From Cristatella mucedo (taxonomy: Eukaryota; Bryozoa; Phylactolaemata; Cristatellidae), in NCBI GenBank assembly GCA_009760855.2, contig WPIO01000001.1, positions 17,027,001 through 17,091,000 of the forward strand: a DNA stretch of 64,000 nt, given 5' to 3'. Below the pieces are notes generated by a model. That model was not told where the DNA came from. It searched no databases and saw nothing but the letters and a program-made list of their open reading frames with translations. Position numbers and translations under genes: made by a program. Below, piece after piece: positions 7,670-64,000 of this stretch (position 1 is the stretch's first letter; each line of letters begins with the position of its first letter).

Positions 7670-7885
7670 CCATAATAATACTTGCCATATTTACTAATAT
7701 TGGACCTGTTCGCCCGGACCGAGACCTGGCCGAAATAGGTTGGTGGTTTGGTCCAGTGATTAAGGTGCTTGCCCCGACCAAGGTCTGGCTGAGGTCGTGG
7801 GCTTGAGCACCGAGGCGTATGTGAAGTGCCTGAATAGAGATTAAGTTCTCTTGGGGCGCTATACAAATGAATTATACAAGTGAAT
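7670..7885 (+). mobile_element. Hairpin-tailed SINE, with a partial second head
   Basis: TTTGGTCCAGTGATTAAGGT then GGTCGTGGGCTTGAGCACCG form a tRNA-like head at about 7747-7813. The body ends in AAGTGCCTGAATAGAGATTA then AGTTCTCTTGGGGCGCTATA, a hairpin shared with LINE A. Upstream, CTGTTCGCCCGGACCGAGAC (about 7708-7727) looks like another copy of the head, so the element may be a dimer. Related copies lie at 40821-40970 and 59250-59400. Confidence 0.75.
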
Positions 7886-14182: not shown

Positions 14183-14340
14183 TTAGGGTGTATGGACCTA
14201 CAGAGAAAGCAGGTTTGGCTTTCTAATTGGGGTTGAATTGTCCACCCTGCTGTTATTGTTCTTATTTTCCAGATATCTGAGCTTTCGACAGAGTTAAACT
14301 TGAAGTGCCATATCAACTTCTGATTCTATTTATGTGGTAG

Positions 14341-14643
14341 GAGTAAGAACAGCTTCATGCGTGTGTTACGACAGCCTAGGCTGTTTCGACAATGCTTCAC
14401 CATTTAACAATGCCGGCAAGCAAGTGCCGAGTGCCCAACCAGAGCAAGTGAGCACGCAGGGTCTGCTGTACACGAGAGCCACTAAAAACGGGCCAGCAAA
14501 AGAGCTGTCATACGTGAATATGAATGTTGTTGAAAAAGTCGGATTTTGCTGCCAGCCTCCCGGCGAAGTTTACTGTTCATGGGTTCGGACAAAGCGAGAA
14601 CTCCGATTGGATGAAAAGCACACAAAATGCTCTTCTTTATTCG
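14341..14643 (+). pseudogene. Lipase copy 1 exon 2 (frameshifted N-terminal domain)
   Basis: Reads [18 protein letters not shown], then [17 protein letters not shown], in the copy 2 frame. A one-base insertion in GTTGTTGAAAAAGTCGGA (about 14525-14542) shifts the frame. [12 protein letters not shown], which carries the oxyanion-hole motif, continues in another frame. Flanked by TAG and GTAAGT. Confidence 0.9.
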
Positions 14644-14751
14644 GTAAGTTGCCGACGAGGCTGGGTACTTGTATTTGCTGACAGTAAATTTTGCTCTTGT
14701 CTGTGACACTCATTGACGTTTTGCTCATTGCTTTTTTTAAAATTTTAACAG

Positions 14752-14991
14752 CTCAACTGTAACGTAATAATCGTTGACTAGTCCAAAGGTCCAAGGAAGC
14801 GGCTCAGTCGACTTACAATACAGAAACTGCAAACTCGAGTCTAGTCGGCAGACAAATCGCCGCTCTCGTTCAGCTGCTGGCGGAGAGCGGCTCAAACCTT
14901 CAGAAAATGCACATTATTGGCCACAGTCTAGGTACCCAGAAAGCTGGCTACGCTTGGAGTGAATTCAAAAGTGGCGTACAGCGAATATCAG
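14752..14991 (+). pseudogene. Lipase copy 1 exon 3 (GHSLG exon)
   Basis: LNCNVIIVD is followed by an in-frame stop. Downstream, [16 protein letters not shown] keeps the nucleophile elbow. The exon is 8 nt longer than in copies 2 and 3. Acceptor AACAG and donor GGTACT are present. Confidence 0.9.
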
Positions 14992-16029
14992 GTACTCCCT
15001 AAAGCTTACTGACGACTTCTATTCTAAGGGAGAGCAGAGATAGACTATCGTCAGCTGCTTCTCTTAGGCATTGAAATGGATTTAAGGCAGCACCAAATTA
15101 CTTGCAAGAGCTAGAGTAACTTACAGGATCGCTGTCATGGTTGCTATCTTGCTCCAAGCGTGGAGAGCTTATTCTCCTTGGTACCCAACATACGGCCTAC
15201 CCCCCCCCCAGTGAGGGCTGCTATTTTAATCTAAAGTTTCTTTTCCGGAAGTAGTAACTCTCGTTGCCTTTTAGATGAATTGCTCGAATGTAATATTTCC
15301 ACAGACACCGACAAATTTGAGAATATGGAGGCTTTCATCAAACACATTAGCCCATGAGAAGTATACAATGATAACCAATATGACCTATTTTAACCGATTG
15401 TAATGAGTTTCGACATATGTTTTATCAATAGTTTAATATTACACAGGTTTCGTTTCCTAAATAGTGGAAGCACAAAGAAAGTAAAAATAGCAAAAATTAG
15501 CACCTAATGGTCTGGTGAGGAGGCCATATTAGCCAGATCTGATTTATTTAAAGCAATTATCTACTTATTTTACGGTACGATTACTTCCTAATTAAACTGC
15601 GTGATCAGTTGGAGGCTCAAGGACACTGAAGAAAGTGTCATGAGCTATAGTAAAAATGTACTTACCGGTCCGGTTTGAACGCTTGGCCTGTTGGTTACTC
15701 ACGTCAGTGACTCACGCTCATGACCAGCAAACCATCTCAGGTTCTGAAAGCACACGGCAGTAATTAATTCACCTACCCACGGACTATGAGCTTACCTGGA
15801 AATTCATAAGCAGATGGTTGATCCGTGACCTTGGGTTGTCATATGTCCTGAGAGTACTTGCAGAGAAGCTTGTGGTGCAGTATCTCCGGGTCGGTAGACA
15901 TAAATGGCAGCTACGCGTCTAATGCATAGCCAGGTAAACATTTTTAGTAGCACAACATCCACCAGTATGTGCGCGGCTCCCATGTTTCTTGGACGGGAGC
16001 TCTATTAAAAAGACTTAATTTCAGTTTTC
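14992..16029. other. Lipase copy 1, start of intron 3
   Basis: About 15300-15360 resembles intron 3 of copy 2 near 43790-43850, so it is ancestral intron sequence. About 15760-15890 resembles a stretch at 44930-45010 and may be an unclassified dispersed repeat. A run of ten C lies at 15200-15209. Confidence 0.5.
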
Positions 16030-17607
16030 AGACACTTCGGGTAAAAGTGATTAAGGCCCATGGAGTAGGATATCACTTTTATGCTGACGATACACAGTGG
16101 TACTTGTCATTCAAACCGTCGGAATCTGCTGCAGCAACTGAGATACTGAATGCTTGCCTTGCCGATATGGAATCCTGGATTTCGGAAAACTTCCTGAAAT
16201 TAAATGATGATACAACCGAACTGCTGCTCATAGGACACCCTAAGCGTGTGGCTGGAATAAAAGGCTTTGTAATTTATCTTCGCCTGTAACTCCACAAAGT
16301 CATAAAGACCATGTGGGTATTGCGCAGGAGAGTTTAGTATAGCTCACTCACGACCAAAGTGGTTTCGGTACACATTCGGTAGCCAACAGACTTCGTCTCA
16401 CGCAACAAAGAAAAAGTGGGAAGCACAGCAGAGTCAGGAGAGCAGTTGAGGTAGTGAGTAGCATGGAAGTAGCAGCTCAGGACCGCTGAAAAGGATGGTC
16501 GGCAGTAGGAGAGTAGTTGTCGTTGCTTAAGAATCGTGGAAGCAATTTCCACAGTCGAGGACCTGCAGAGCTAAAGCTTCTTTTGTCAATGGTCTTTAAG
16601 CGGAGGAATGGGACAGCTAATTTATTGTCCACACAGAACCCGAGGGCGCGAACAGGCTGAAACTGATGCAGCAGTTCAGCTAGGTATGAAGGAGCCAAGC
16701 CGTGGCGGGCCATGTGGGTCAGCGTAAGAACTTTGCTCTGTATAGCTTTGCTCATCTAATAGGGGACGCCATTGTGCGACCGTCACCTCGTGCTCGAAAT
16801 TTAGGCGTCGTTTTTGATGGCTGCCTCAATTTTAACAGCTTCATTCAGAAGACTGCTTCTACAGATAGCCATCACGTCCGATCCCTATCCAAGATCAGGA
16901 GCTGTCTCCCACAGTTTGTGCAAAAAAATTAACTAGCTCCTTAGTTCAGTCTCGGCTTGATTATTGTAATTCCCTTTTGGCTGAGCTACCAAAGAAAACT
17001 ATTAGGCCACTGCAGCTGACTATGAATATGGCTGTAAGGCTAGTCTTCAAGTCCCAGAAGTTTGAGCCCGTGTCTCCTTTGCTTAAAGAGCTAGGATGGA
17101 TGCCGGTTGAGCAACGGATACAGAGCAAAGTTTTTACGCTGACCCACACGGCCCGCCACGGCTTGGCTCCTTCGTACCTAGCTGAACTGCTGCATCAGTT
17201 TAAACCTGTTCGCGCCCTCAGGTCCCGTGTGGACAATAAATTAGCTGTTCCATTCCTCAGCTTAAAGACCGTTGGTAACAGAAACTTTAGTTAGCTCTGC
17301 AGGTCCTACACTGTGGAACTTGCTTCGACAGCTCTTAGGCAACGACAACTACTCTCATACTGCCGGCTATGGCTCATCCTTTCAGCGGTCCTGAGCTGCT
17401 ATTTCCATGCTACTCACTACCTCAACTGCTCTCCTGACTCTACTATGCTTCCCACTTTTTCTTTGTTGCGTGAGACGAAGTCTGTTGGCTACCGAATGCG
17501 TACCGAAACCGCTTTGGTCGTGAGTGAGCTATACTAAACTCTCCTGCGCAATACCCACATGGTCTTTATGACTTTGTGGAGTTACAAGCGAAGATACATT
17601 ACAAAGC
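16030..17607 (+). mobile_element. LINE B, RT to 3' end, interrupted by an inverted LINE B piece
   Basis: KVIKAHGVGYHFYADDTQWY begins near 16050, with FLKLNDDTTELLLIGHPK up to about 16250. After the 475-bp interruption the frame resumes as FAHLIGDAIVRPSPRARNLG at 16742. It then runs through the C-terminal [20 protein letters not shown] (17070-17130) and [13 protein letters not shown] to the 3' UTR. The 3' end is GGAGTTACAAGCGAAGATAC then ATTAC. Confidence 0.85.
16270..16744 (-). mobile_element. LINE B 3' piece in opposite orientation inside LINE B
   Basis: On the minus strand this encodes [20 protein letters not shown], then [12 protein letters not shown], followed by the LINE B 3' UTR. GCTTTG flanks it on both sides (16264-16269 and 16745-16750), which could be a short target-site duplication. 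It is also nearly the reverse complement of about 17115-17607. Confidence 0.85.
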
Positions 17608-18015
17608 CTTTTATTCCAGCCACACGCCCAGTGAAGTTCATGAGATGCTCCCTTAAACTGAAGTCACTGACGTCACGCTCATGCTGTACTCCTTGAGATA
17701 TTTGCAATATTGTGGTGTTACAAAACTGTCTCTTAAAAGTATCCTAGCAGGCAATTGTTAAGTGTATTTGCAGCTATAAAATGAATTATCATAGCTAAAA
17801 TTGACGCAGAATTGTGAATTGAAGTTTGAAATTTCTTAAAGTATTGATGAACAGACTTGTGTTAGTCGGTCTTCACTTAATTACACAAACCTAGCTGAGA
17901 ATGTTTCTCAGTTTACTAGATTAAAATAAAGAGCTGATCTGGTAAAGTCAGTCTTTGCATGGAGAAGTATTTAATCTGTGACTTTAACATCGAAGCAGTA
18001 AATGTTTGGCAAAAG

Positions 18016-18046
18016 AGTGAGTGAGAGAGAGAAAGAGAGAGAGAGA

Positions 18047-18130
<84 letters not shown>
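18016..18130. repeat. (GA)n microsatellite
   Basis: About 115 bases of nearly pure GA dinucleotides in intron 3 of lipase copy 1. Open frames on either strand encode only Arg/Glu or Ser/Leu runs. Confidence 0.97.
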
Positions 18131-18133
<3 letters not shown>

Positions 18134-18234
18134 CTTTGAACAGAAGACTGAAAGTTGGCAGGTCAATGTCACCCATTCGCTAATCAGATCATCGTTTCAC
18201 TAATATCTAAATTTAGAAGTTATTATGAAAGTGT

Positions 18235-18412
18235 ATTTGGTTTTTGAGCCTCCACATGATCCATGTAATCCATTATGTCATGGTGGTTGTCATTGAGCGT
18301 GCTACCACTAACCAATTGATCATGCTTCCTTTGCAGCAAATGTCAAGTGATTAGAAAGAGATTGAGTTCCCTGAGGGCGCTATGAAAAATTAATTACCAT
18401 TATTATTATTAC
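18235..18412 (+). mobile_element. LINE A 3' UTR fragment with hairpin tail
   Basis: Contains GAGCGTGCTACCACTAACCA and GCAGCAAATGTCAAGTGATT, then AGAAAGAGATTGAGTTCCCT and GAGGGCGCTAT, followed by an ATT-rich tail. No coding part remains. Confidence 0.75.
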
Positions 18413-18639
18413 CATCTCGTAGTTATTATCCTGATTGCATCAGCACTATATTTCCGGCATTTGGCCTGAGCTATCCCCTTGCCCGTCCATGGAACTGATT
18501 CCTTAAAATAACAAGCAAAAGTGATGAATTTGTCTGTTTCATAATTATATTATATTATAATTCCATCTATAAAAATGTAGCTAAGAGAAAAAATAACTTT
18601 TTATAGTAAAGAGTAAGCCATAATGAACTCAAAGACTGA

Positions 18640-18790
18640 GTGGCTTTGGCTTTCTGTTACCATACGATAGCCAAAAAATTGATCTTATGCAACAGAGAGA
18701 ACGCAAGAAGTATAGCTTAGTAAGTTTTGCAGTCAAAGAAGTGAATAAGGTAGAAGCTGCAGAGTAGGAAGGCTGGCAAGGGTTGCCTTG
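18640..18790 (-). mobile_element. LINE B 3' UTR fragment
   Basis: TTTGGCTTTCTGTTACCATA then CGATAGCCAAAAAATTGATC parallels the minus-strand LINE B 3' UTR at 16350-16400. Strongly diverged. Confidence 0.55.
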
Positions 18791-19207
18791 GTCGGACGCA
18801 GGAGGAAACGTGTCGTTGCATTTGAATTGCGAAACATTTTGCTAAAATTAATGATCTGTACATCAAAGGTTAATTTCGCCTATACGTCTGTAAGACGAGG
18901 AGTAGAATTGCTGATTTATCCTTCAAAGTGCAGCCGACGACACGGTGTGGCTAAAATTAGCAGCTGCTCAGATAGGTGTGAAAAAATTAAGGTCAAGCAC
19001 GCCTAGCCAGTCGCACCAAGAATTTTTATATTAACCAATTGATCAGCCGGAACCCATCATAGCTTCTTCTCTGAGAAAGAGAGATATGGCAGACAATTTT
19101 GGATTTTTTAACACTAATACGTTTCTATTGCACCTTCGGAGATCACAATTCATTTCTTGGCACTTTAAAATGCAAAAGCGTTCAAGAATACACTCAGGAC
19201 CACCGGT

Positions 19208-19509
19208 GTGCCAGGTCTCTGTTCAGTAGCATGCAGCCAAACATACACGGGCAAGTATGCTAGCACACCGGAGCGAAGAAGACAAGTCAACCGGAGCTCG
19301 GGGAAAGCTGAGAAGAACAGCTACAGCGTCTTAGGCTCAGACTTTCATGATGCAAAGTCATTGCATGTGATAGCACACGATGGAAACGAGTTTCAGACTT
19401 TCGGTGGATGCAAGATGAAGGCCCGATCACCAGCAGATTTTAATTCTGCGGGAGGATCGGCTAGACTACTACAAGTTGAGGAGTGAGTTCTGACAGCACA
19501 GTGGGGGAG
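19208..19509 (-). mobile_element. LINE A-like C-terminal fragment left of the 335-bp array
   Basis: The minus strand reads AVRTHSSTCSSLADPPAELK, then SAGDRAFILHPPKV. This is the counterpart of LINE A's [35 protein letters not shown]. It joins directly to the HWLPIKRRI segment that begins the tandem array. Confidence 0.65.
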
Positions 19510-20514
19510 CAAAAAGGTCGCATAGATAGGCTGCTGCAAGCAAGTGGCTACATCCAGACATAGAAACGTTTGGAAGTAAATTCGACGCTTGATGGGAAGC
19601 CAGTGAAGCTCACACAGACGTGGCACGATGTGGCAGCTACACCCACTGACGACAGACGCGCCAAGCTGCTGAGTTTTCCCCAAGTAACATACGATAACGG
19701 GAGCAGATCTGAAGTCCTAGCTATAGGTAATGATGCAGGATGATGCACAGGCTCTTGCTTAGCGACAGCAGTTATTGTGAGAAATGAGAATTCTGCGAAA
19801 CAGATTTCGCGAACTGAATCAGTGACAAGAACGACAACTCGTGGCAAAAAGGTCGCATAGATAGGCTGCTGCAAGCAAGTGGCTACATCCAGACAGAGAA
19901 ACGTTTGGAAGTAAATTCGACGCTTGATGGGAAGCCAGTGAAGCTCACACAGACGTGGCACGATGTGGCAGCTACACCCACTGACGACAGACGCGCCAAG
20001 CTGCTGAGTTTTCCCCAAGTAACATACGATAACGGGAGCAGATCTGAAGTCCTAGCTATAGGTAATGATGCAGGATGATGCACAGGCTCTTGCTTAGCGA
20101 CAGCAGTTATTGTGAGAAATGAGAATTCTGCGAAACAGATTTCGCGAACTGAATCAGTGACAAGAACGACAACTCGTGGCAAAAAGGTCGCATAGATAGG
20201 CTGCTGCAAGCAAGTGGCTACATCCAGACATAGAAACGTTTGGAAGTAAATTCGACGCTTGATGGGAAGCCAGTGAAGCTCACACAGACGTGGCACGATG
20301 TGGCAGCTACACCCATTGACGACAGACGCGCCAAGCTGCTGAGTTTTCCCCAAGTAACATACGATAACGGGAGCAGATCTGAAGTCCTAGCTATAGGTAA
20401 TGATGCAGGATGATGCACAGGCTCTTGCTTAGCGACAGCATTTATTGTGAGTAATGAGAATTCTGCGAAACAGATTTCGCGAACTGAATCAGTGACAAGA
20501 ACGACAACTCGTGG
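19510..20514. repeat. Tandem array, three copies of a 335-bp unit
   Basis: Units are 19510-19844, 19845-20179 and 20180-20514. The landmarks GGTCGCATAGATAGG and ACTCGTGG each recur exactly 335 bases apart. Only a few substitutions separate the units. On the minus strand each unit encodes CELHWLPIKRRIYFQTFLCL, a LINE C-terminal motif. The period is not a multiple of three, so open frames drift between units and are not genes. Confidence 0.97.
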
Positions 20515-22510
20515 TGTGTACCTCACATTGGACCACTTTCGGTGCTAAGTCTAGAATCTCCAGGCGAGCGGCAGCCCTCTTAGCCCTTCCATTAAAACAA
20601 CTAATGCTTGCTGGGTGTGATGGCACATTACAAGTCTTTTTTATGAAATAGTTCTGAGTAGTTACCACGGGAGTACCAATCACGTGATCGTAAAAAGGGT
20701 CTTTCACTAGCAGAAAGCCATCTAGCCTCGACGTATGGAGATGTACTCGCTTTTTGGCTGCTAAACCTTTGTAAACAATGTGAGCTGGATGGTGAGCAGG
20801 ATCATTCCAGTCATTCGGCACTCAAATCAGCAGGCAGCCCGGCATATTGAGATTCGCACGAGCTCGAATAGGCGCACAAACGTGTGCAAATGCATGCAGC
20901 TAGCACTCGACAGCGAACTCGCACACACGCAGGCATCCAGAAAGGTTATCCACAACAAAATTCTGGCTCTTGAAATCTGCAGTGAAGAAGGTGCAGGTTA
21001 GCTCAATAGTCCTACTCGGTGCTGCAGATGATGGCTGGAACCGTGTGACTTGCCAGGGCACAGCCTCCCCCACTTACTTGCTCAAGTTAGTTTCATCACA
21101 AACTATGTATCTGTATGCATTTTTGGCTGAATGGGTTCAGGAACTCTTTTCACTAGCCAAGATGCAGCTATATTAACTAGTTCATTATCTTCATTACTGT
21201 CGAGCTAGCAATATCTATAGCTGGCTGTCGTATTAGACAGCAATAAAAACCAAACAAGACGTGAACACGACGAAACGACAAGTTGCGAAAATTCTGGGTC
21301 TCTAAAGAATAATGAGTTAGAGCTAAGAGGTAATTCAAGACAATTGAATGCCATTTTCCGCCTGAGTGATTTTGAGTATGCATTTTATTTTTTTAAATTT
21401 GACTTTATTCCTCTTAATGCCAGTCAAATTTAAAATATGTCAGATATTAGCAATGAGCAATGATACAAGTTTTTTTCATGAATGCGATAATACATCATAT
21501 TTCAGACAACTATTGAATTTACGCTTAAAAATACTCGAGCTTAATGAATTTAGGTGAACTAGCCGATTTATATGATTATTAGAAGATTTTCCGAGTAATA
21601 GCTGCTATCAGTATAATGGCAAAATTTTAATTAATTGTTACATGAAAAATGTATTTCAAAGCATTTAAAATACCAGTTTGATTAGGATTAAATACCATTA
21701 ATTCATATGCCATTTCAAGTACCACTTTTAGCAAGAAGTCCTACTGTTGTTGTCTAGCCTAATTCCCTACATTAAACGTACCTGCAGGAATATATTCGCT
21801 GCATGCATCCTATGCCAATAAGAAATAAATCGCCTTAGACCATCTTGCTAATCTACTTTGTGTCAGCTGTGAAAAGCTGAAATACTAAATTGGTCTGATT
21901 TTTTATTTTGGAGAAAATTGCGGTCCTTAAACAGAATAATAAGGAAGCAGAAGTTATATAATCTGTAAGTTAAACTGAATACAAAACTATCCAGACTGAT
22001 TTTTTACTATTTATGCCAGGTGATTTTTGGTTATGCAAATATAGAACATTTGGACGTGAAATTTAAAACTCATAGCTATTAGAATTGTTACTAATGCATG
22101 GGCTTACGTGACTGCCATTGCAGTCTACTTCCATCACAGTATCTGTGTGCATCAATGCGTGCGGTGTGTTCAAGTCCTCCTCTGTGATTTGAGACTGAAA
22201 TAGTATCTTCCACTCTTCTGCAAGGAAAAGAACCTGTACGTATGCTGCCTCTGCAGCAACAGGCTTTAGATCATAAGCCTCCTAAGCACTTTAGAATCGA
22301 TACGCCGACCTGGTTTATCAGTTTTAATTGATGTTTCCGTGAGCCAGCAAAAAATATGCTGAACTTAGTTGACAGCTTATAGCTATCATTTTCTGGTATC
22401 TGCTGAAGGAAAGTTTTTTGAGAGCTTTCAGTTGTTTTGTTTTTAAATATTGCAGTCTTAATAAAAGATGATTAGCAAACTTGAAAAGACTCGTCATAAT
22501 ATTATTATAG
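20515..22510. other. Rest of intron 3 of lipase copy 1, unassigned
   Basis: 20489-20821 is open for 110 codons on the minus strand and GC-richer than its surroundings, but shows no motif I know. 20860-20940 is CA-rich with CGCACA words. From 21180 to 22500 the sequence is AT-rich and I see nothing in it. Confidence 0.5.
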
Positions 22511-22742
22511 GCTTGGATCCGGCTGGTCCAATTTGACAGTATAAATACACGCCTGCGATTGGACCCAAGCGACACGGTGTTCGTCAACGTAATTCACAGC
22601 AACGGGACACCTCTGCTGCAAGGGGTAGCCGGGATCGCCGTTGCATTTGGACACGTTGACTTTTTTCCCAACTGCGGTGTAACACAACCAGGATGCCCTG
22701 GCCTATTGAAAGGTTTACTGGGCTCGATATGCGATTTAGGAG
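22511..22742 (+). pseudogene. Lipase copy 1 exon 4 (catalytic Asp exon)
   Basis: GLDPAGP is intact directly after the acceptor ATTATAG. A 2-nt loss at GGTCCAATTTGACAG (copy 2 has GGTCCAAATTTTGACG) then shifts the frame. DPSDTVFVNVIHSNGTPLLQ and FGHVDFFPNCGV can still be read in the shifted frame. The exon is 8 nt shorter than in copies 2 and 3. Confidence 0.9.
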
Positions 22743-23349
22743 GTGAGGCAAATTGGAAAAAGCAACATTTCTATGATAGCAGTGGAAAATGTGATTGTCG
22801 GTTTTACTCATGTGAGATGTTAGGGTGACGTTGTAATAACTAGTTTTTCCCGAAGATTTATGTAATTTGCTAAAAGTAGGTTTTTAAATGCTCAGTGTTT
22901 TTCATTTAGTTAAATTTTTTAATTAGTCCACTTATGGTACAAACGACATCCGCCATAATCCTTTAAACTTGAGCAATCGTTGCGTACGTTTCCGTTCAAT
23001 TTTATTTCTGACGTTTACTTTGTCAATCAATTAGTTAGATGACATGGCATAAATAACTGGTGAGAGAACAAAGAGAATTGTAACTTAAAATATTGCTGAT
23101 TGTCGTGGGCAAAGCCCAGATGATAGTGCCCATGCAAGCAGTAAGAAGGAAAATGACAATATAATGTATATAAGGGTTGGATGAAGGTAGAACCCCCATT
23201 AGGGACAAAACTTTGTCATGTGATTGTCGGAAAAAAGCAAAGCTAAAAATTAAACTGAGCTATCAAATATTAAAAAAGTAGTGCCATAACTTTTCAAAGG
23301 GATGACGCTATGAAAAAGGCTTACTCGAGAACCCCCATAAACACTTATT

Positions 23350-40389: not shown

Positions 40390-41248
40390 GCAGCTACTTC
40401 CGTTTTCTAGACGTACTCTGAAGACACAGACTCGTATATGAATCGTTCACAGTTAGACTGGTAATAAAGCTGGACTTTGTGACCGGTGGCCTGTGAAATC
40501 GATTGAGGAAAGAAATTCAAAGCTTGTCGTGGGTGGCACACTCCAGAGTTTTAAAAGAATCACATTTACCGAAGCTTGCTATTGTTGAGCCAAAATGAGG
40601 TGTGTTGCGTTGATATTACATCGTCAAGAGCGAGTCACCCGCGAGCACTGCTTCCTCTTTTAAACAGCTTTAAGCTATTAGGCGGGAATCCTCATTGATT
40701 GATTAAGCTCTCAGGACTCGGGTGAGTGCCGTTTGCAGCAGTTGTCAATCCCGAAGCCCAAAGATTACTATTGCAACGCATTGAATAATAATGAATTTAG
40801 CCATAGTATAATAAAAGTAGCTAGTTTGGTCCAGCTGTTAAGTTGCTCGCCCCGACCTAGATCTGGCTGAGGTCGCGGGCTCAAGCGCCGAGTCGTAGGT
40901 GAAGCGCCTGAATATAGATTAAGTTGTCATGGAGAGCTATACAAATGAATTATATTTTCTTATTTTATTTTAAAAGTAGATTCGATGCATCAAAATCTGA
41001 AAGATCCTTATCAAATGGCGGCATGGCATGGGTGGCAGGATGTAATACGGAAAAAAGAGCCGATATTCGGCATCGCAATAATAATTAACTAATAATGTTC
41101 GTTTATAAATTATTCCAAAGCTTCTAAGTAATTTTGCCACAATGGCAGTTGGTCAATGGAGGCTACCAGTCAGCTGCAGGGCACTTAGCTGGTTCTATGT
41201 ACGTCACGCTGCTGTTGCCGCGCCCTCGAGCAAAAATAGATGGACGGC
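40390..41248 (+). promoter_or_regulatory. Duplicated upstream region of lipase copy 2
   Basis: Matches the region about 60150-60930 upstream of copy 3 in order. Examples are GGGTGGCACAC at 40529, TTTACCGAAGCTTGC at 40566 and CACTGCTTCCTCTTTTAAAC at 40648. The likeness extends about 1 kb above the start codon, apart from a SINE inserted only in copy 2. This shows block duplication including the 5' flank; which parts are regulatory is not known. Confidence 0.7.
40821..40970 (+). mobile_element. Hairpin-tailed SINE with clear target-site duplication
   Basis: A 150-bp element with head AGTTTGGTCCAGCTGTTAAG and body GGTCGCGGGCTCAAGCGCCG. The hairpin is AAGCGCCTGAATATAGATTA then AGTTGTCATGGAGAGCTATA. 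TAAAAGTAG flanks it on both sides (40812-40820 and 40971-40979). Copy 3 lacks it at the equivalent place. Confidence 0.9.
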
Positions 41249-41445: not shown

Positions 41446-44400
41446 GTCAGTGCGAATTATTTTAAATAGCTGTGAGCTGAAAGGTTTTCTCTGCGAAAAT
41501 GGAAGCGATTTGGATGAGCGGAGTGATTGCAGTGCAGGACCAAGATTTGCATCTATGATATACCAATCGCTCGATTGTTCGCTCATACATTACCACCGTT
41601 GCGAGCCACGAGTAATGTATCTTTAGTCATTCTTTTGATTAGCTTTTGCTAAACCTTTTTATCTAAGAATGGCTCAAAAACCTTGAGCAGTTGCATCACC
41701 TTTTTCCTTCTTGACCGCTGACGCGTAATTAAGGGTCAAACGATAATTGGCACAGCAGGCTCTCAACGCTTCTGTATCATGGCGCTTCCCGCCTCGTGCC
41801 ACTGTGCAGTTGCCACAGCAACTACTTGTGCACGGCCAGTGACAGAGGCGTTGTGAAGAGTGAATACTATACAATGATTTTGCACTCCACGGGGCGCAGG
41901 TGTAGGTCAATGCTATTAGTAGCTAATTTCATGAAAATTATTGTATCATCAGCTAGTAGATGTTATAAAAATATGAGCACATGCACATTTACTTGAGGAG
42001 TAGAGTTGTTGAACAACCGGACGGGTACACATAAATGTCTCAACCACAGAGAGCACAATTTCGCTGGCTAGATAATTAACAGCTCATCTTTATTAGCTGG
42101 GGAAATTGTATAGGAGCTCATGGAGTGAGTCCGGCATGAATTCAGTATCCACCCTTCATGGCGTGTGTTCTTGCCGCTGCAATGACGACACAGCTGTTGT
42201 GGATCACACTGTTATAAGTAAACATATCTAGGCGAGTGGTAACGTATGGGAATTGACTGAGATTGTTGCAGTTTCTAGTAATTAACCTAAAGATTGGATA
42301 CAATTAGTACTAAAAATTGTGACATTTAAATGTGAGGCGAAATATTCATGGTCGACTATAGCAAATCTGCTTGAGATCTTTTTCCAGACAACGTACACCT
42401 ACCTTGCGTCTGAGCTGGCGATGACGACTAGCTAATGAAAGTCGATAGTTCGATTTTAGGATGCTCAATTTTACAAATCCACTTGGTCAAGATTGGTAAG
42501 CTTCGATATCACGGTGAAACGGAGAGCGCCAACTTTTTTGAATATTTGCCGGGTTTAAACAAATATTTGTATTATGGTCTTCTATTACTTGCTCTGCCGC
42601 TTTTTCCCTGTTATCCTACAGGGTATATCATGCATTTTTCTGTGCACACACTCTCTCTAAATAATTATCAATCGATTCTCTCTTCTTTTTATTCAGTACT
42701 CTCTCTCTCTCTCTTCTCGTGGTGTTTGTGCACACAGCAAGTGCAGATGCTACAAAATGGTAGATCACGGTTACTTTGCTTCCCAGCTTTGCCCGTGCTC
42801 ACGCGTCTGAGCTTTTGATCGAGCTCGAATAGAATTGCCACGTCAAATTTCAAATTTAATCTTGTGATAGGAGTGAGAACAGCGTCATGCGTGTGCTATG
42901 GAAATCTGGGCTGTTTCGAAAATGCGCCACCATTTGACAACGCCGGCAAAGAGGTTCCGAGTTCACCTGACCAAGTAGGCACGCGATTCCTGCTGTACAC
43001 GAGGGCTACAAAAAATGGCCCGGCCAAAGAGCTTTCATACACTGACGCGAACGTCGTGAGAACTTCGGGTTTTGCTGCCAACCTTCCGGTGAAGCTTATC
43101 GTTCATGGGTTCGGACAAAGCGAGAACGCCGGTTGGATGAATAGCATGAAAGATTCTCTTCTCAATTCGGTAAGTTACTGTTACTGACGACGCGGGGTAC
43201 TTACGTTGGCCGAGAATAAATTCTGCCCTGGCCTGTGGGACTCTTAACTTGTTTGCTCGTCTATGTTTTTAATTTATCAGCTCAACTGTAACGTGATAAT
43301 CGTCGGCTGGGCCGTCGGGGCGGCTCAGCCGGCGTACAATAAAGCAACCGCCAACACCCGTCTAGTCGGCAGACAAATCGCCGCTCTCGTTCAGCGGCTG
43401 GTGGAGAGTGGCTCCAGCCTGCAGAAAGTGCACATCATAGGCCACAGCCTAGGCGCCCATACGGCAGGCTACGCTGGAAGCGAACTGAAAGGTGGACTAC
43501 AGAGAATAACAGGTATTCCTCAAAGATTTTCAATGATTTGCTGACATAAGCGAGAACACCAGTGAGCGGCCATTTTACGTTTCTTCTGAGAATGCACATT
43601 TATTATAGGCGGAAAAGGATTTCGGAAAACAGCTAGACTAACATAAATAGTCGCTGTCGCTGTTTTTCTGTATATCCGAGTGTGCACAGCATACCCTCAA
43701 TAGCAATTACCTTATTAATTGCTTTTCGCTGATAAAAGCAGCTAGTTTAAAACGACGTTGTCCGAACGTAATCTGCAAATGGGTATCGACAACCTTGAGT
43801 ATTTAGAAGGTTTCATCGAAGAGATTAGCCCTTGAGGCATACAAATCTTTTGGAGAAAATCAGAGCTGTTTATATCTCTACCAACGTCCAAGGAATTGCG
43901 ATTTATCAGACCCTCTAGTTTGAAATTAATAAAGCTTCTGCTGCTTTACTGGCGGATGCACTTAGCAAAAGTTGTCGCTGTAGCCCTACTTGCTTTTTTA
44001 GTCACTTTACACGTATTCTATGTTATGAATAATTATTGTTGCTATTGCATGATTAGTTGGTGATTCAAGTATGCTAAATAAAGTGCAGTTAGTACTTTTC
44101 ATCACTGACCTACTTCAGGTCTATTTGGTGCGTGTTTATTCTTGGTTCTTCAATTCGGAGACCCGTGGCCATGGCGTATTAATAATAATAATACAAATAA
44201 TAACAATAATAATGCACTTGATAAAGTTCCCTTAGAGAACTCAATCTCTTCTTCGGCACTTTACATTAGCCGCAAAGATAAACGCGATTGAGTGGTGAGT
44301 AATATCATGCTTGATAATTAACATGAATAACATGGTTAGGGATGACATGCACAGGGTCACAATGCAAGTGCCGTTAGTGGCAGCCTGCACAGTGTCAGCA

Positions 44401-47400
44401 CGCATAAGCACACGAAGGACGAATCACAGGGACCCACTAAATGCTGTCCTAAATAAGTGTGTCTTCCAGTTCTATTTAAATGCGGTCAAGTTAGGATATG
44501 TCATGACTCAAGTCGGGAGTGAGTTCCAGGCTTTGGGAGCATACGAACTAAATGCACGGTCTCCAAAGGTATTGTGGTTTTTACTAGGTATTGGTAAACT
44601 GTTCGTTTTCGTAAAGCGGTTGGTACGATGCTTGGTCTAGTGGGGGAGTACACCTGAGAGATAGGCTGGAGCCAAAGAATGAAGTGAGCTAAAAGTCAGC
44701 GACAAAACCTTGAAGTCGATCTGCTGCTTGACTGGGAGCCAGTGCAGGTCGGCGAGAAGTGTTGTGATGTGGCAACTGTGTCGCTCACGATAAGCAGGCC
44801 TAGCTGCAGAGTTTTGCACCAGCTGTAATCGCCTGATTGCACATGCCGGTAGGCCAGCAAGCAGTGAGTTGCAGAAATTAAGACGGGATGTGCAATTAAT
44901 TGCAAGTTATATAACCATGCTGCAGTCCATAGGTGATCCTCAGCCATTAGCTTGCCCTGGAAGTTATTATCAGGAAGGGTCGATCCGCGGCCTTTGCTGG
45001 TCCGATGTTTAGAAAGAGCAAGGCCAAGCAGCGTGTGGCCTAGCAAGTCCCTTAGGGTGAACAAAGCGGAAGCTTCGCGCCCGATAAGAAGCGTGGCAAG
45101 TGTGTAACTGTAACAGACAGGTCGTGGACCAGTGCTGTACACAGTATAGTTAATCTCTCGCCTTTTTTAAGGCCACTCGATTGCTTGTTTTTGCCTTGGC
45201 TTCTTCGTTGCTCTGCAGTTCCTCGACTGTATAAGTCAATCCGCAAATCTTATGCAACGACGTCTACTCTCCTACGGCAGACTATGGCAAATCCTTTCTA
45301 ATTATCCTGAGCTGCAACTTCCGTGCTACTCACTACCTCGACGGCTCTACTTACTCAGCTATGCTTTCATCTTTCTCTTGTTGCTTGAGATGAAGTCTGC
45401 TGGCTACCGATTGTGTACCGAAAGCCGCATAGCTTTGGGAGTGCCATAGAAAACTCTCATGCGTAAAGCTCACTGTTTTTGGCTTTGTGGAGTTACTGAA
45501 GATTATAAATAACATTAACTTCTTGGCCAAGACTGAGGCAAGTCTGAAAAAGGACTAATCATGAGCGCCATTAAGGGAACGCCATAGCATGGGAAAGCTT
45601 GGTGGATGACATGACCGGACATTTATCGAATCTTTCAACCAGAGTCCCTGCGTATGGGACACTAGGAGCTCGTCATGCAGGAGTCAGATCATGAGGTAGC
45701 AGGCGAAAAGGTAAACTCGGTAGACTCCAATACACTTGGAGATGCCTCACTGAGGGTCGTTTCCTAGTTTTCTAAACAAAGCAATTTTAGCATGGTCACT
45801 TAGGGGGTCAAGCAAATAGGAGTCAGGATTTATGGAAAATGACCTTGTAAAGTTTATGGAATAAATATGACCAAAGAAGAAGAAAAGGAGGACAGACACA
45901 AGACTGTGTACAGTGTACACTTGGCTTTAGACTTTTGGCCGGAGGGGCGGCATAGCTGCAGGAAGGGAGACTCTCTTACACTGAGTGCAACTAGGCAACT
46001 GCCTCTCTTTCTGACTAGGAGGTAAATACATAGAGCGTTCATTGTATGCATTTTCTGAGCAGCCGCGAGTGAGATGGAAATATGAAGCCATATCGAGGTC
46101 CGTAAACGCATTACTTCCGTGAATCTTGCATTTCGCCTCTCCCGTAATTTAGGCTACTACTACGACGATACTGTTACGATAAGAGACACGTCTAATGGAT
46201 CGGAGGAGCCGAATTATTAATTTCACCTAATGCTACAACATAACCTCTCATCAGGGTAAATGTGACGGTGAATTGTGCGTTGAATTATGATATAGTTATG
46301 TGCAGGCTTTGTATAGCTTTAACGTAAGTACCTATGCAAGACGTGATTATTCGTTCGCTTAGCAGACAGGAAGGATGATCTCAATCTGAGGGGATCAATC
46401 TCAGACTAAGAATTAGTCTAAGCACTAGACCAAGAATAGTTTCACTTGTGACTTTAAGGTCCAAGGAGTATGTATTTGTCAAGCCAGCTAGCTTTCGGTG
46501 GCACATTAAACGCCACTTGTTTTATGACAGCAATTACCTACTCAGGTAATCGCTTTGCTAATATATACATTTTTAGGATGTACTTTATCTAGACCATAAT
46601 TCCAAACTATCTTGAAACTGTGTCAGATTTGCGACCATCCTCATGATAAATTGTATCCTGAGTTGCATTAAAAACAGATTTTCACCATTTACCGTAAGCT
46701 CTACAGGCTTACCCATAAATGAGAGATAACTCATTTATATGATGCACAAGGACAAAGAGTTTTTAGATCAAAATAATATCACGTATTATATCTCTGTTCG
46801 CCAGTCAAAAATGGCATGACGACTAAGGTGTGTTCGAACAGATAGTTTGCTGAAGTGTGCAAACAGCTCTATTGGCCTCTGGTGCGTATGCTGTAACCTA
46901 TTAACTTCCTTTCACACAACAAAGAGAAAGTGAGAAGGGTAGCTAAAGCAGGAAGGCAGTCGGAAACTGGAATATCATAGAAGTTGGAGCGACGGAGATT
47001 GGTAAGGGTATGCCAGTTGGCTGAGAGAGAGATGACGCCATTGCTGTTGAATCACAAAGATGAGCTCCGTAGTTTAGGATATGCTGTCAGTAAGCTAATG
47101 ACAGGAACAGCTGACTTGTTATTCACAGAAATCCTAAAGGCACGAGTAGGTTATAACTTCTGAAATAGTTCAACTAGGTATGATATAATTGAGTTATTGC
47201 AGGCCCCTGTGTCAGAGAAAGAATTTTTCTATTTACCGTTGATTAACCATTAGCCAACATAGCTTCCATCATTAAGGACACACATGGCAGAACCTACTTG
47301 ATATGTTGACCAGCTAAGAAGCAATATTAATTGCCAGATGCACGGTTTGATGGATTTTTTAGTAAAAGCCTAAAAATACTTTACTAGCTCATTATAGATA

Positions 47401-50400
47401 AAACAATGGAAAAATAATTTATTGGTACAGTGCCCTAAGAGTTACATATGCCACAGGGCTCGAGCCAACGACCTCTGTCCAAATGCATTTACCTAGACCT
47501 TGGTTGAGAAGGGCCAAACACTTGGCAAAACTAGTTTCCGCTTGCCATTGATGTGGATAGCTATAACATGAAATTGGCCGTTTAAAGATAAACATATAAA
47601 ATGCAAGACGTAAGAACCTACAATAATAAATGACTTTTGGCAAAAAAGGCTATTTTCCTGTTTTCAAATTTTCTCTTACAAGCCATCCGAGTAAAAATAA
47701 GCAAATACTAACTTTGATGAATAGCATGATTTTTCTTCCAGAACGTGGTCATTTAAAGATGCTAATATACCTATCCGAAATTAGCTAAAACACTTATCAC
47801 CCACGTGATTGATTAGGCTAGCTAAGGTAAAGGTTAAGGTCAGCTGATCTATCGTACGCCTCGTTGGTTAAGCAGAGTAGCCTCAGCAGCTATCAAGCAG
47901 CTGGCCGCAGGCAGTACAAGATTATCCGCTGCTAGACTTATGCAACACGACCTGGATCGCAAATTGCAAGCACCCCACTACTTAGTTAACACCTAGGGGC
48001 AGGAAGAGTCATCCAATAGGACCGATTCGAATCTTTCGCGAGAGATAGAAAATAGATGTACTCGCTTGAATTTTTGTTCTAGCCGCCTCACGCGATTTGA
48101 ACTTAGTTTGCCACTTTCTAAACTGGCATTTGAAATACCAGTTAGATAAGGGTTACAATACCTGTAATTATTATCTCATTCCAAATATCATATGAACCAG
48201 GCATCATTGTTTTTATTGTATTGGTTGCTTCTCCAGAATTAATGCACGTGCAGTAATGTATTCCATGTATGCATTCAAACCAGCAAGAAAAAAATCTTCG
48301 GGTTACAGTCGGTACACCATTCACCCAGGAACAAGTGGTTCTGATTACAAACTGCACAGAAGTTTAGTAGTTGCATGGTTGCTAAGCTGTAAAAATTCCA
48401 CCAAGCTTTTGTGCTGCAGCTCTGACTAAGAGTCAGTCTCAGCTTAAGCCAACGAAACAGCACACACATCAAATGACGAATTTGTTTACTCTATGATAAC
48501 GATCAAAAACTTGTCTTGCTACTCAAGAGTTAACCTATGAGAGTAAACGTTTGGCTCATGAGTAAGGTGGTCGCCTTTAACGACTAAGGTCACGGGTCGA
48601 GCAATGTTGCACATTTAAAGCAGATGAATAAAGAGCTCTACGAACGGAGTGTTTTTTGTAAAATAAAAACGGCCGTATTCTAATCAAAGCTGCTCTGGTA
48701 ACGTTTTCCTAAGCAACAGAATGACAGCCGCCTTACTCGAGTTATCAACAACGATGCTGAAAACCCATTTAACTTACGGCATTAGCTCCTCCTGCTTAAA
48801 GTTAGCTCCTCCTGCTTCAAGTGCCGACCGTGTCTTCACCTAAGACGGCATTCTAATTGTCTCCAGTAAGTGTAATGTAATTAGAAATGCATTCGTTTCA
48901 TGTACAAACTGAGGTATGGTGTGGAGCTGAATCTCTCTGATTATGACGATGCTAGAGATGAATAGTGTTCCAATAATTATTTAAAGTCTTATCTGTCGTG
49001 AGCCTCGCAGTTTCCAGATCAAGGCACCTCTAGCTTACCTGCAGTGGCTCTCAGTAAAGCAGCTCATTGAATTCAAGATCCTATAACTCACATTTACTTC
49101 CTCCTATCTTTTTACTCCAGCTTATCCATCAGATATACGCCCCAATAGGCTAAGTATCATACTGCACGCCTTTCTGAAGCAAATCGTTGACCTATACCTT
49201 GTACGATTCTCAGATCCTTTGGAGACCGTGCCCCTAGTTCGTATGCTCACAAAGCCTACAAATTACCTCCAAACGGCGCCACGACGTCCCTGTGTTGACG
49301 CCATTTAAAAAGAAACTAAAAACATTCATTTATCATAAGACTTCATAGCTCAATGTGATTCTTCCTCTGTGTGCTTGGCATGCTGACACTCTGCATGCTG
49401 CAGCTATCCGTATCCGCTTGCTGACCCTATGCTTGGCACTCTGACCATGTTGTACTTGTTGACATTGAGCATGCTACCATTAAGGAAGCTCTCACAAAAA
49501 TTCTGATGATAGTATGTTGTGTGTTACATTTTTTAAATATTGAACCTTTGGTCGAAAGAGATTCGCACAAATAAAGCAACACTACATGCTTTTACTGTAG
49601 GCTTGGATCCGGCTGGTCCAAATTTTGACGGTAAAGATGCACGTGTGCGATTGGACCCAAGTGACGCTTTGTTCGTTGACGTAATTCACAGCAACGGGGC
49701 ACCTCTGCTGCAAGGTGGAGCCGGGATCGCGGCGGCTTGTGGACACGTTGACTTCTATCCCAACGGCGGCGTAGCTCAACCAGGATGCCCTCCTGTACTG
49801 AAAGCTTCGATCGACGCCATCCTGAAAGGGGATATCAAAGGTGAGGAATAACGATAGACACAAAACTCCTACGGAAGCTGCTGGAACAGTAATTTCTGAG
49901 ATAACTCATGAAAGATGGTAATGTAGTGCTTAGCAAACTGGTTGCTCCCGAAGGTTACCTTAACTAAATTGGATTGGATTTCAAACTCGTAAGCTTTAGA
50001 CCATGGGCTACATTTTCTACCTACCTATTTATTATAAAGAACAAACCTAACACTTTAGAATTTAAACAATATTTTTTATGAAGTTTAATTGAAGTTGATT
50101 GATTAATTCAATACTAATAATCATGAATTTGAACAACATAAAATAAGAAAATTACTAGAGAGAGAACAAAGATAACATCAACTTCATTGTCTGCATTAGG
50201 AAAAGTGGTAGCAGTAGGACAAACGTACGAAGCACTTAGAATTATGAAAATAATTCATATCTTATGAATTCTGAATAAGGCTAGAGACTGCTATTGAGCA
50301 AGATACATTGCAATGTCAAGACTTGAAGAACATAGCATGGCTTCACCCGAACCGCCATATCTGTACCTTTTTGACATTAGCAAACAACTGTTTAACGTAC

Positions 50401-58560: not shown

Positions 58561-58765
58561 GATCTAGCCAAGCTATCAGAGTGGCTACATAAATTAGGAT
58601 CTCCACCAAGGTCGGTGTACGATCATTGAAGTCTTGATTCTGAGTGCATTCATACTTTATAGAGTCTGAATGCATCAAGACTCAAGACTTCTACGATCGT
58701 ACACCAACTTTGGCTGAGATCCCGATTTTGGCAGCCAGTCTAATAGCTCAGCTATATCTAGATCT
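58561..58765. repeat. Imperfect palindrome with arms of about 100 bp
   Basis: GGTGTACGATCATTGAAGTC (58614-58633) pairs with GACTTCTACGATCGTACACC (58685-58704). TGCATTCA/TGAATGCA lies near the centre, and GGATCTC/GAGATCC further out. Pairing continues to AGCTATCAGAGTGGCT / GGCAGCCAGTCTAATAGCT. It resembles a foldback or MITE-like element; no coding capacity. Confidence 0.9.
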
Positions 58766-58768
58766 AGA

Positions 58769-58953
58769 GCTAGTTTCCAACCTTCCTAATTGGGCGACCC
58801 TTTAATACAGTTCCTCATGTTGTGGTGACCACCAAACATTAAAATATTGTGTACAAAATGTGGAAATACGTGTATTCCGATGGTCTAAGGCGACCCGTGT
58901 AAAAGGGTCGCTCGACCCCCAAAGGGGTCGCGAACCTCAGGATGAGAACCACG
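58769..58953 (-). mobile_element. hAT non-autonomous element, URR1/SPIN type
   Basis: Contains CCAACCTTCCTAATTGGGCG, then ACCCTTTAATACAGTTCCTC and ATGTTGTGGTGACCACCAAA. After a diverged middle comes TTCCGATGGTCTAAGGCGAC, then AAAGGGTCGCTCGACCCCCA and AAGGGGTCGCGAACCTCAGG, ending GATGAGAACCAC. These blocks and their order match, from memory, the URR1/SPIN-type hAT-Charlie consensus in reverse orientation, including the terminal GAGAACC repeat. About 185 bp, so non-autonomous. Confidence 0.75.
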
Positions 58954-58954
58954 A

Positions 58955-59025
58955 CAAATAAAAAAATCAAGCTGCAAAAAGACTTTAGAATCTAGAGTCT
59001 TTTTGGAGCTTGATTTTTTTATTTG
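58955..59025. repeat. Near-perfect 71-bp hairpin
   Basis: CAAATAAAAAAATCAAGCT (58955-58973) pairs exactly with AGCTTGATTTTTTTATTTG (59007-59025). AAAAAGACT pairs with AGTCTTTTT further in, around a TAGAATCTA-like centre. It starts directly after the hAT element. Confidence 0.95.
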
Positions 59026-59249
59026 CTGACTCTGTACTTGATCTAGTGCACTGCGATTTCTTTCAGTGTAGGGATAGCATAGCAAATTGCTATTAACTAT
59101 TGCTGTAGATTATGTAGCATGCAGGCTGGCATTCCACAGTCTGCACAGACAGAAAGAATCAGTTAAAATAGGCAGTCGCACTTCCTCACAGCGAATTTCC
59201 ACGGATATCACTACGTACATTCTTTAGCACTCAAACTCCAAAAAACCGT

Positions 59250-59390
59250 GCTGGTTTGAACAAGTGGGTAAGGAGCTTGCCTCCAAGAAAGGTAAAGATG
59301 AATGTGTCTGTCCACCGAGGTCGTGGCTGGAGTAACTTTCAGACATGAAGCGCCTGAATAGAGATTAATTTCTCTTAAGTTGCAATAGAA

Positions 59391-59400
<10 letters not shown>
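59250..59400 (+). mobile_element. Hairpin-tailed SINE
   Basis: Head GGTTTGAACAAGTGGGTAAG, body CCACCGAGGTCGTGGCTGGA, then GAAGCGCCTGAATAGAGATT and AATTTCTCTTAAGTTGCAAT. Same family as 40821-40970, followed by a TA tract. Confidence 0.75.
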
Positions 59401-61130: not shown

Positions 61131-63967
61131 GTCAGTGCGACACGTTTCAATTCATTTTTTTGAAGGCTTTGTCTGCGAATATGGACAAGATTTGGATAAT
61201 CTTAGTTATTGCAGTGCTAGAAAAACATTTGCATCTATGATATAGTATTGGCTTGCTTATTTTTTTACGCATTAATGCCGCAGTGATCCACCAGTAACTT
61301 CTTTTTAGCCATTTGTGGCTTAATTCTTTTTTGCTGTACTTTTAACTGGGAATGTCTAAACTTACTTTAGTAGTGGCATAACCCTGTCTATGCCTCGACG
61401 GCTGGCTCGTAATTAAGGGTTAAACGTTAAAGCGTACAGTGTGCTGTCTACGCTTCTGTACCGCCGTGACGTTCCTAGCCTCGTGCCTCTGTGTAGTTGC
61501 TACAGCAATACGTTGTGCACGACCAGCGATGAAGGCATGAAAAAATGCATCAAGATTGAACACCAATACAAAGACTGTGCACTTCACAAGGCAGAATCCT
61601 AGGTCAAAGCTAAAAGAAGCTTAGTTTAGATAAAAGTTATTATAGTGTCAGGTAGAGAATATCATTAAAATGTGTGCACATGCACATTTACTTTGGGAGC
61701 ATAGGCATTCAAAAATTGAAAGAGGATTAATGCATATTGAAACCACTTTGAGCATTAGCTCGTTAGCTATTTATTTAGTTTCACTCATATTTGCGATGGA
61801 AATAATATAGCATTTCATCAAGCCATTCGGCCATGAATTCAGTGGCATCCGCATGGTACATGCCAGTACCATGGTATGGTTGACTCACTAACATGGTATG
61901 GTCGACTCAGTACCATGGTATGGCCGACGAAGCTGTGGATAACACTGTTAGAAGTATACAATTTCAAGCTGGCGGTGATGCATGGAGTTTATTTAAAAAG
62001 GTTACGCTTGTTAGAAGATAATGTCAAGAAAATAATTGGATGCAGTTATTACTAAAAATTGTGACGTTTAAACTTGAGGCGAAACACTCTTACAAAGCTA
62101 TTTATTGCTTCGCCACGCGAGTAGTTATCTGAAACTATGCAATCATATACGGCGTCTGAGCAGGCGAAGATACTCAGATAATGAACATCGATGCGCCGAT
62201 TTTAGGCTGCTCAATATAACCAACCCTATCACGTCAAGACTGGCAAGATCAGATATCACTACGGAAAGTCCAACGCCACTTTCTTCGTATATATGTGTGG
62301 CTGGCAACAACACATTTCATTTTTGGCTTTCCAGTACTCGCTCTCACCTATCTTTACGAACCCAGGCTGATGTTCATGAGTTTCTCCTACAATCTCCTTC
62401 GCTCTCATTATCGATTGGTTTTCACTTTGTTATCCACTACTCTCTGCTCATAGTGTCTTTGAGCAGAGTCAGTGTAGACCAAGCTTGAATCGAAGTGCTG
62501 AGTCAAATTTCAATCTTATTCTCTTGGCAGGAGTGAGAACAGCGTCATGCGTGTGCTACGGAGACCTGGGCTGCTTCGAAAATGCACCACCATTTGACAA
62601 CGCCGGCAAAGAGGTTCCGAGTTCACCTGACCAAGTAGGCACGCGATTCCTGCTGTACACGAGGGCTACTAAAAATGGCCCGGCCAAAGAGCTTTCATAC
62701 ACTGACACGAGCGTTGTGAGAACTTCGGGTTTTGCTGCCAACCTTCCGGTGAAGCTTATCGTTCATGGGTTCGGACAAAGCGAGAACTCTGATTGGCTGA
62801 ATAGCATAAAAAATGCTCTTCTCGATTCGGTATGTCACGGTTACGGACGAAGCGTGGTACTTCCGTTGGCTGATAATACATTCTGCCTTATCCTGAGGCA
62901 CCTAATTATTTGCTCGCCCATTTACTTCATTTTATCAGCTCGACTGTAATGTGATAATCGTCGGTTGGGCTAATGGAGCCGCTTCGCCGGTGTACAATAA
63001 AGCGGCTGCCAACGCGCGTCTAGTCGGCAGACAAATCGCCGCTCTCGTTCAGCTGCTGGTGGATAACGGCTCCAGCCTGCAGAAAGTGCACATTATAGGC
63101 CACAGCCTAGGCGCCCACACAGCAGGCTACGCTGGAAGCGAATTGAAAGGTGGACTACAGAGAATATCAGGTATGCCTCACAGTTTGTCAATCATTTTCA
63201 ATTTGAAGCTACCACAGCAGTGGTCAGTCAAGTGCGGTTCTTTATGAGAGCGCATGTTTATTTCAAAAAGCACCAGAGTCCCAAAAAGAGCTAGTCTAAC
63301 TAAAATACTCGCTGTCACTGTCTTATCCTAATCTGAGGGTGCATAGCTTACCCTCAATATTACCATAGTGATTGCCTTTCGCCGCTAGAGGCAGCTATTG
63401 GTTGGTTTGATCATTCTCATCTGAGCCAACCAAGGAAAAATAAGAAAATTCTAGCTTTGACGAATAACATGATTTTCCTCTCTGAACGTGATCATTTAAA
63501 GATTTTCGTATGCCTATCTAATGAAAGCATAAAAGCACGTCGCCCGCATCCTTGATTAAGCCAGCCAAGGCAAAGGTTAAGGTCAGCTGATCCCTCCATT
63601 AGCCTGGCAAACTGTAAATTGGTGGACTTGGTAATGCGTCATCGGCTTACTCGAGTGCATGATGGGCTGCCATGTTGTAGTGGTCATATTTGTGGGTATC
63701 AGTGTGGAAGACGTGCTCTCATTATAGGCTTGGATCCGGCTGGTCCAAACTTCGAAGGTAAAGATGCACGTGTGCGATTGGACCCAAGTGATGCCGTGTT
63801 CGTCGACGTAATTCACAGTAACGGGGCACCTCTGCTGCAAGGGGGAGCCGGGATCGCGGCTGCTTGTGGACACGTTGACTTCTATCCCAACGGCGGCGTA
63901 GCTCAACCAGGATGTCCTCCCGTGCTGAAAGCTTCACTCAGCGCCATCTTAAAAGGAGATATTCAAG
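61094..63967 (+). CDS. Lipase copy 3: pancreatic-lipase-family gene, first four exons
   Basis: Exons 61094-61130, 62531-62829, 62939-63170 and 63728-63967 join in frame with the same lengths (37, 299, 232, 240 nt) and phases as copy 2. The signal peptide is [21 protein letters not shown] and GLDPAGP are intact, so the Ser and Asp of the triad are present. Exons 5 (His) and 6 must lie beyond the right edge. Very close to copy 2 in sequence, including synonymous regions, so the duplication is fairly recent or the copies are homogenised. Intron 3 is only 557 bp, against about 6 kb in copy 2. Likely function as for copy 2: a secreted single-domain lipase. Confidence 0.9.
61131..62530. other. Lipase copy 3, intron 1
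   Basis: About the same length as intron 1 of copy 2 (1.4 kb) and similar along much of it. A 127-codon frame at 62105-62488 is not shared with copy 2 in frame and is not taken as a gene. Confidence 0.7.
61865..61928. repeat. Short tandem repeat containing TACCATGGTA palindromes
   Basis: Three irregular units of about 22-25 bp: AGTACCATGGTATGGTTGAC, AACATGGTATGGTCGACTCA and GTACCATGGTATGGCCGACG. Confidence 0.9.
62531..62829 (+). CDS. Lipase copy 3 exon 2 (N-terminal fold)
   Basis: Acceptor CTTGGCAG, donor GTATGT. Starts [18 protein letters not shown]; has [17 protein letters not shown] before the donor. Confidence 0.92.
62939..63170 (+). CDS. Lipase copy 3 exon 3 (nucleophile exon)
   Basis: Acceptor TTTATCAG, donor [26 protein letters not shown], then [20 protein letters not shown]. 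Confidence 0.92.
63429..63600. other. Intron 3 segment conserved with lipase copy 2
   Basis: Counterpart of 47690-47870. In copy 3 it lies in a 557-bp intron with none of the transposons found in copy 2. Confidence 0.75.
63728..63967 (+). CDS. Lipase copy 3 exon 4 (catalytic Asp and lid)
   Basis: Acceptor CATTATAG, donor [26 protein letters not shown], then [15 protein letters not shown] and the lid start PPVLKASLSAILKGDIQ. The window ends 33 bases after the donor. Confidence 0.92.
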
Positions 63968-64000
63968 GTGAGGCGCAACGGTAGAGACGACATACCTACG

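Follow-up and report, generated by a model that had tools for sequence, protein, structure and literature searches.

The question raised by this locus is whether a short, decayed repeat in the window, i.e., the whole 64,000-nucleotide stretch of DNA analyzed here, is a copy of a hAT transposon of the URR1/SPIN type, and whether such an element reached its host by horizontal transfer, as a first-pass annotation had proposed. SPIN elements are a textbook example of transposons that have moved between distantly related animals; further papers on them are those of Pace (2008) and Gilbert (2012), and Gilbert is said to have placed SPIN in Lymnaea in 2010. We found that this repeat is very probably an old insertion of a non-autonomous, miniature hAT element of the SPIN/URR1 kind, from a family that probably arrived by horizontal transfer.

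To place the repeat among its relatives, window positions 58700-59050 were used as a query against the same organism's assembly (572 Mb, 688 contigs). A first look gave 1,947 candidates, a figure that is not a copy number, and among the 40 of these that were scored, at least 39 other copies were found with 83-87% identity to the query; all counts are lower bounds. The 41 matches of this search corresponded to the window itself, the 39 copies, and an adjoining palindrome that matched itself. Alignment of 40 copies, the one in the window included, generated a sharp consensus of 187 bp, whose termini begin with CAG and are inverted, with 15 of 16 bases complementary. The 8-bp flanks agreed at 7 or 8 of the eight positions in 24 of the 40 copies, and shuffling of the right flanks in 2,000 rounds gave a mean of 1.39 such copies and at most 7. 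The observed number is a low count because some copies scored as mismatching, e.g., L014 and L021, carry the target duplication shifted by one base. In both flanks, the most frequent bases of the inner six positions read TCTAGA, giving a target of the form nTCTAGAn. Inverted ends with 8-bp target duplications are the anatomy of a hAT MITE. Seven CGACCC/GGGTCG motifs were counted by eye in the 187-bp consensus. Within the 39 copies, substitutions affected 12.1% of bases at CpG columns versus 5.0% elsewhere. Having been picked up as the closest hits of the window copy, these copies form a biased set from which the age of the family cannot be read.

The element and its surroundings in the window are as follows.

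58762..58769, no strand: ATCTAGAG, which has the nTCTAGAn form and is the target copy on the left side (from the window letters and the preference seen in other copies)
58770..58954, plus strand: hAT MITE of the SPIN/URR1 type (consensus 187 bp), present as a decayed copy that runs in the same direction as the consensus, CAGTGGTTCTCAACC...GAGAACCGCTG
58770..58784, plus strand: left terminal inverted repeat, decayed (window letters against the consensus)
58939..58954, plus strand: right terminal inverted repeat, with its last bases decayed (window letters against the consensus)
58955..59025, no strand: 71-bp palindrome directly to the right of the element, with two 35-bp arms that are 94% complementary and a 1-base spacer
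58990..58997, no strand: a second ATCTAGAG, 35 bp beyond the right end of the element (from the window letters)

The evidence for the element copy is the match of the consensus to window positions 58778-58950 and the alignment of the 40 copies. Over 58778-58950, the consensus and the window shared 155 of 173 bases (89.6%, E 1.45e-63), and the local alignment score was 257, a value to be compared with the 28 or less obtained with 300 mononucleotide shuffles of the stretch. When 3 mismatches at most were tolerated, the 23-mer TTAATACAGTTCCTCATGTTGTG was found once in the window and never in 100 dinucleotide shuffles. The rest of the window gave a single further match to the consensus, 17 bases long, at a chance-like E of 0.11. 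The outermost bases have decayed on both sides, with CTAGTTTCCAACC instead of CAGTGGTTCTCAACC on the left and GAGAACCACGA instead of GAGAACCGCTG on the right. Measured over 187 columns, the window copy is 14.4% away from the consensus, and the other 39 copies are 3.2-8.6% away (median 5.9%). It is a nearly full-length, decayed member of a family with many copies in the genome; it has no coding capacity and would have been unable to transpose on its own. The old insertion suspected at the outset fits this divergence. The coordinates first given, 58769..58953, were each one base off, the likely ends being 58770 and 58954. The sequence blocks then named were found where they had been placed, with CATGAGGAACTGTATTAAAGGGTCGC exact on the minus strand, except that two of them are altered in this copy: CCGATGGTCTTAGG reads CCGATGGTCTAAGG there, and GGGTCGCGACC reads GGGTCGCGAACC.

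No 8-bp duplication stands directly beside the window copy, as the 8 bp immediately to its right are CAAATAAA, which do not match the left ATCTAGAG. The right-hand ATCTAGAG stands across the center of the 71-bp palindrome and is possibly the right target copy, displaced; we suggest, as one reading, that an inverted duplication of 35 bp came to lie between this target copy and the element. The palindrome had no match among 89 other loci of the same genome (281,644 bases). A separate foldback of 198 bp adjoins the left side of the element at 58561-58758, with two 99-bp arms that are 78% complementary and no spacer, and it also had no match among the 89 other loci.

The identity of the family was approached through its ends. 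SPIN elements prefer nTCTAGAn as a target, and this preference was present in the flanks of the aligned copies; the inverted ends and the 8-bp nTCTAGAn duplications are of the hAT/SPIN type. When the 187-bp consensus was aligned to what we take to be the URR1 consensus, whose letters serve as a lead only, 2 of 81 bases differed on the left and 1 of 85 on the right; the middle was unlike, and overall 176 of 187 aligned bases agreed. In addition, short strings of the element were searched in the full-text literature, where they led to printed primers and genomic sites. The strings also led to three papers that supplied none of the oligos (PMC10096830, PMC12151471, and PMC3226686), whose titles concern a plant virus, Tetrahymena, and bacteria or fungi. 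The oligo matches were picked through seeds of 14-16 bases, and only the bases outside the seeds and, above all, the way in which the Kcnq1ot1 primers are ordered and oriented are independent of that choice. Five oligos printed in the passages retrieved, for Kcnq1ot1, Fem1b, and Wee1, matched the consensus at 75-95%. The Kcnq1ot1 pair fell at consensus positions 14-33 (15/20) and 109-128 (19/20) on opposite strands, spanning the element, and its forward primer was not a seed match. A Kcnq1ot1 RACE primer from a passage of a separate paper (20/25) overlaps the primer site at 14-33, and the left end of the consensus was matched by printed genotyping primers for Fem1b (20/23) and Wee1 (18/21). 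For comparison, 29 oligos, a selection from passages of five of the six oligo papers rather than every oligo there, reached at best 64% and on average 55%. Against the assignment, two printed Pqbp1 sites matched only weakly, at 23/35 and 17/30, and shuffles reached 22 and 19, respectively. A printed Vps18 primer, which probably lies in an ordinary gene, matched at 17/21, probably by chance. The unlike middle and the non-matching 8-bp flanks of the window copy also count against it. In the passages retrieved, mouse is stated as the source in PMC11021458, PMC12319709, and PMC3713010, and was taken from the gene names for the oligos of PMC6221546, PMC3447949, and PMC3418201. The URR1/SPIN-type reading of the first-pass annotation is supported by these printed mouse-locus oligos, which match the termini, and by the inverted ends and nTCTAGAn duplications.

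The source of the transposase was sought with a profile search of the same genome for PF05699, which gave 138 matches from the 150 scored of 766 candidates. Among the 50 of these matches that were checked, none had SPIN-type element ends, and no autonomous relative was found there. Thirty of the 50 (L044-L073) form a hAT family with PF05699 at the C-terminus and open frames of up to about 640 residues. In this family, 28 of the 29 other loci share 99% identity or more with L055 over a best piece of 1.3-2.2 kb, suggesting a very recent burst unrelated to SPIN-type ends. This family was rejected as the mobilizing partner, with SPIN-type ends absent from its 1.5-kb flanks (best 11 bases, E 7.1), and so were twenty weaker hAT matches with flanks of about 3 kb, whose best end-like matches were 17 and 23 bases long (E 0.21 and 0.75).

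These results bear on the possibility that a hAT family of the host lineage resembles SPIN only at its ends, either by convergence or as hAT ends are alike. The middle of the element, which is unlike that of the presumed URR1, would fit such an origin, and so would the lack of a SPIN transposase among the 50 checked of the 138 PF05699 matches. However, about 166 of the 187 bases belong to the similar region, which differs from the presumed URR1 at 3 positions and reaches far beyond the terminal repeats, and the mouse oligos printed in the retrieved passages match inside it. We consider a resemblance restricted to the ends improbable, and keep the SPIN/URR1 assignment.

As judged from sequence comparison, horizontal transfer is the best explanation for non-coding outer parts that are nearly identical in a rodent element and in one from a probable invertebrate; such likeness, in copies only a few percent from their consensus, is expected under transfer and hard to obtain by descent. 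An ancient family inherited vertically, and retained both in mouse and in the present lineage, would account for the presence in both lineages and for nothing further. Against it, the 39 non-coding copies, although a biased sample, are just 3.2-8.6% from their own consensus, and the ends of this consensus are close to those we assume for URR1, a likeness that neutral decay over hundreds of millions of years would erase; descent is hence very improbable. Contamination of the assembly by vertebrate DNA, in favor of which nothing was found, is the least probable of the explanations weighed here, its probability being close to negligible: the 40 copies are spread over 32 contigs, six of them longer than 10 Mb, their flanks differ and carry duplications of their own, and the middle is unlike that presumed for mouse URR1. 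Searches outside the genome gave nothing that resembles the element, as viral contigs had no matches to its 30-base and 20-base patterns, prokaryote contigs had none to a 22-base pattern, and plasmids, phages, and E. coli genomes showed no blastn match. Three viral contigs (L001-L003) found with a 19-base pattern were discarded as chance, as their likeness is to one another and not to the element, with which they have little more than the string in common.

A jump between phyla would not be needed if the host itself were a vertebrate, for instance a fish with a small genome, and the window context is informative here. Five pieces from the 133 open frames of at least 75 residues in the window were tested for domains. 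Pfam PF00151 was detected in all 3 pieces tried from pancreatic-lipase-like exons, and PF00078, found in 1 of 2 pieces, marks a reverse-transcriptase remnant. In the PDB, where most lipases are from vertebrates, the lipase exons have vertebrate enzymes as their best matches, and this would be in line with a vertebrate host. The joined lipase pieces, however, can be aligned with mammalian lipases along about 215 residues and have clearly diverged from them, and the CpG observed/expected ratio of the window is 0.76, which is high for a vertebrate. A vertebrate host is accordingly unlikely, even if it is the least improbable of the alternatives. The host is an animal, and transfer into a probable invertebrate remains our reading. 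The window also has the following features.

14304-22825, 42819-49848, and 62380-63981, plus strand: three sets of pancreatic-lipase-like exon pieces (Pfam applied to three pieces of the last set), an arrangement that suggests a tandem gene array
19509-20514: a 335-bp unit in three tandem copies, 99% alike
7822-7876, 40900-40954, 59346-59400, and six further places: a 55-bp retrotransposon-tail-like motif (GAAGCGCCTGAATAGAGATTAAGTTCTC...), with 9 copies in the window that are 60-100% alike

No Rfam match above the gathering score and no tRNA gene was detected in the window.

Under the proposed mechanism, a SPIN-type hAT transposase made elsewhere would have bound the element ends, with the seven CGACCC/GGGTCG motifs as putative binding sites, and would have excised the element and reinserted it at TCTAGA-like sites. 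Horizontal transfer, with vertebrates or a source common to both as the donor, would have brought the family into this lineage; the 187-bp form, carrying an internal deletion, would then have amplified, and its copies would have decayed since. A more specific scenario is that the host is an invertebrate lineage with no SPIN report and that the 187-bp form, with its own middle, originated there once the lineage had been invaded from the source that also reached murid rodents. We offer it tentatively, as a possibility that falls short of likely. If it is true, the 187-bp form in a new lineage would be one more independent event on the map of SPIN spread. A SPIN family of many copies, with ends like those in mouse, adds a probable invertebrate to the hosts as well as a burst that can be dated, and with its distinctive middle, trees would be able to distinguish a source common with the murid elements from a separate invasion. 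Were the host a pulmonate snail, the family would chiefly bear out what has been published.

The literature searched, which covers few subscription journals, gave no description of the 187-bp form. The family is not unprecedented, and it is a new member of a well-known kind, or possibly one from a host already reported. The element to which it is closest is URR1 of mouse and rat, a hAT-Charlie element that we take to be the murid SPIN, and the outer parts of the two, 81 and 85 bases long, differ at 3 positions when the presumed URR1 letters are used. It differs from URR1, presumably 225 bp long, in its unlike middle and its length of 187 bp. Other relatives can be compared by description only. 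According to the passages available of the Biomphalaria glabrata genome paper, a SPIN-like hAT is present in this snail in about 1,000 copies, and for its DNA elements "no intact transposases were detected" (PMC5440852); the likeness to our family lies in the high number of copies of such an element. The claim that such an element is notable in an invertebrate, made when a pond snail had already been named, was toned down in view of this report. The passages available on Rhodnius prolixus describe SPIN_NA_12_RP and SPIN_NA_13_RP, non-autonomous elements ascribed to horizontal transfer (PMC11614815), and the likeness here is that of a non-autonomous SPIN in an invertebrate.
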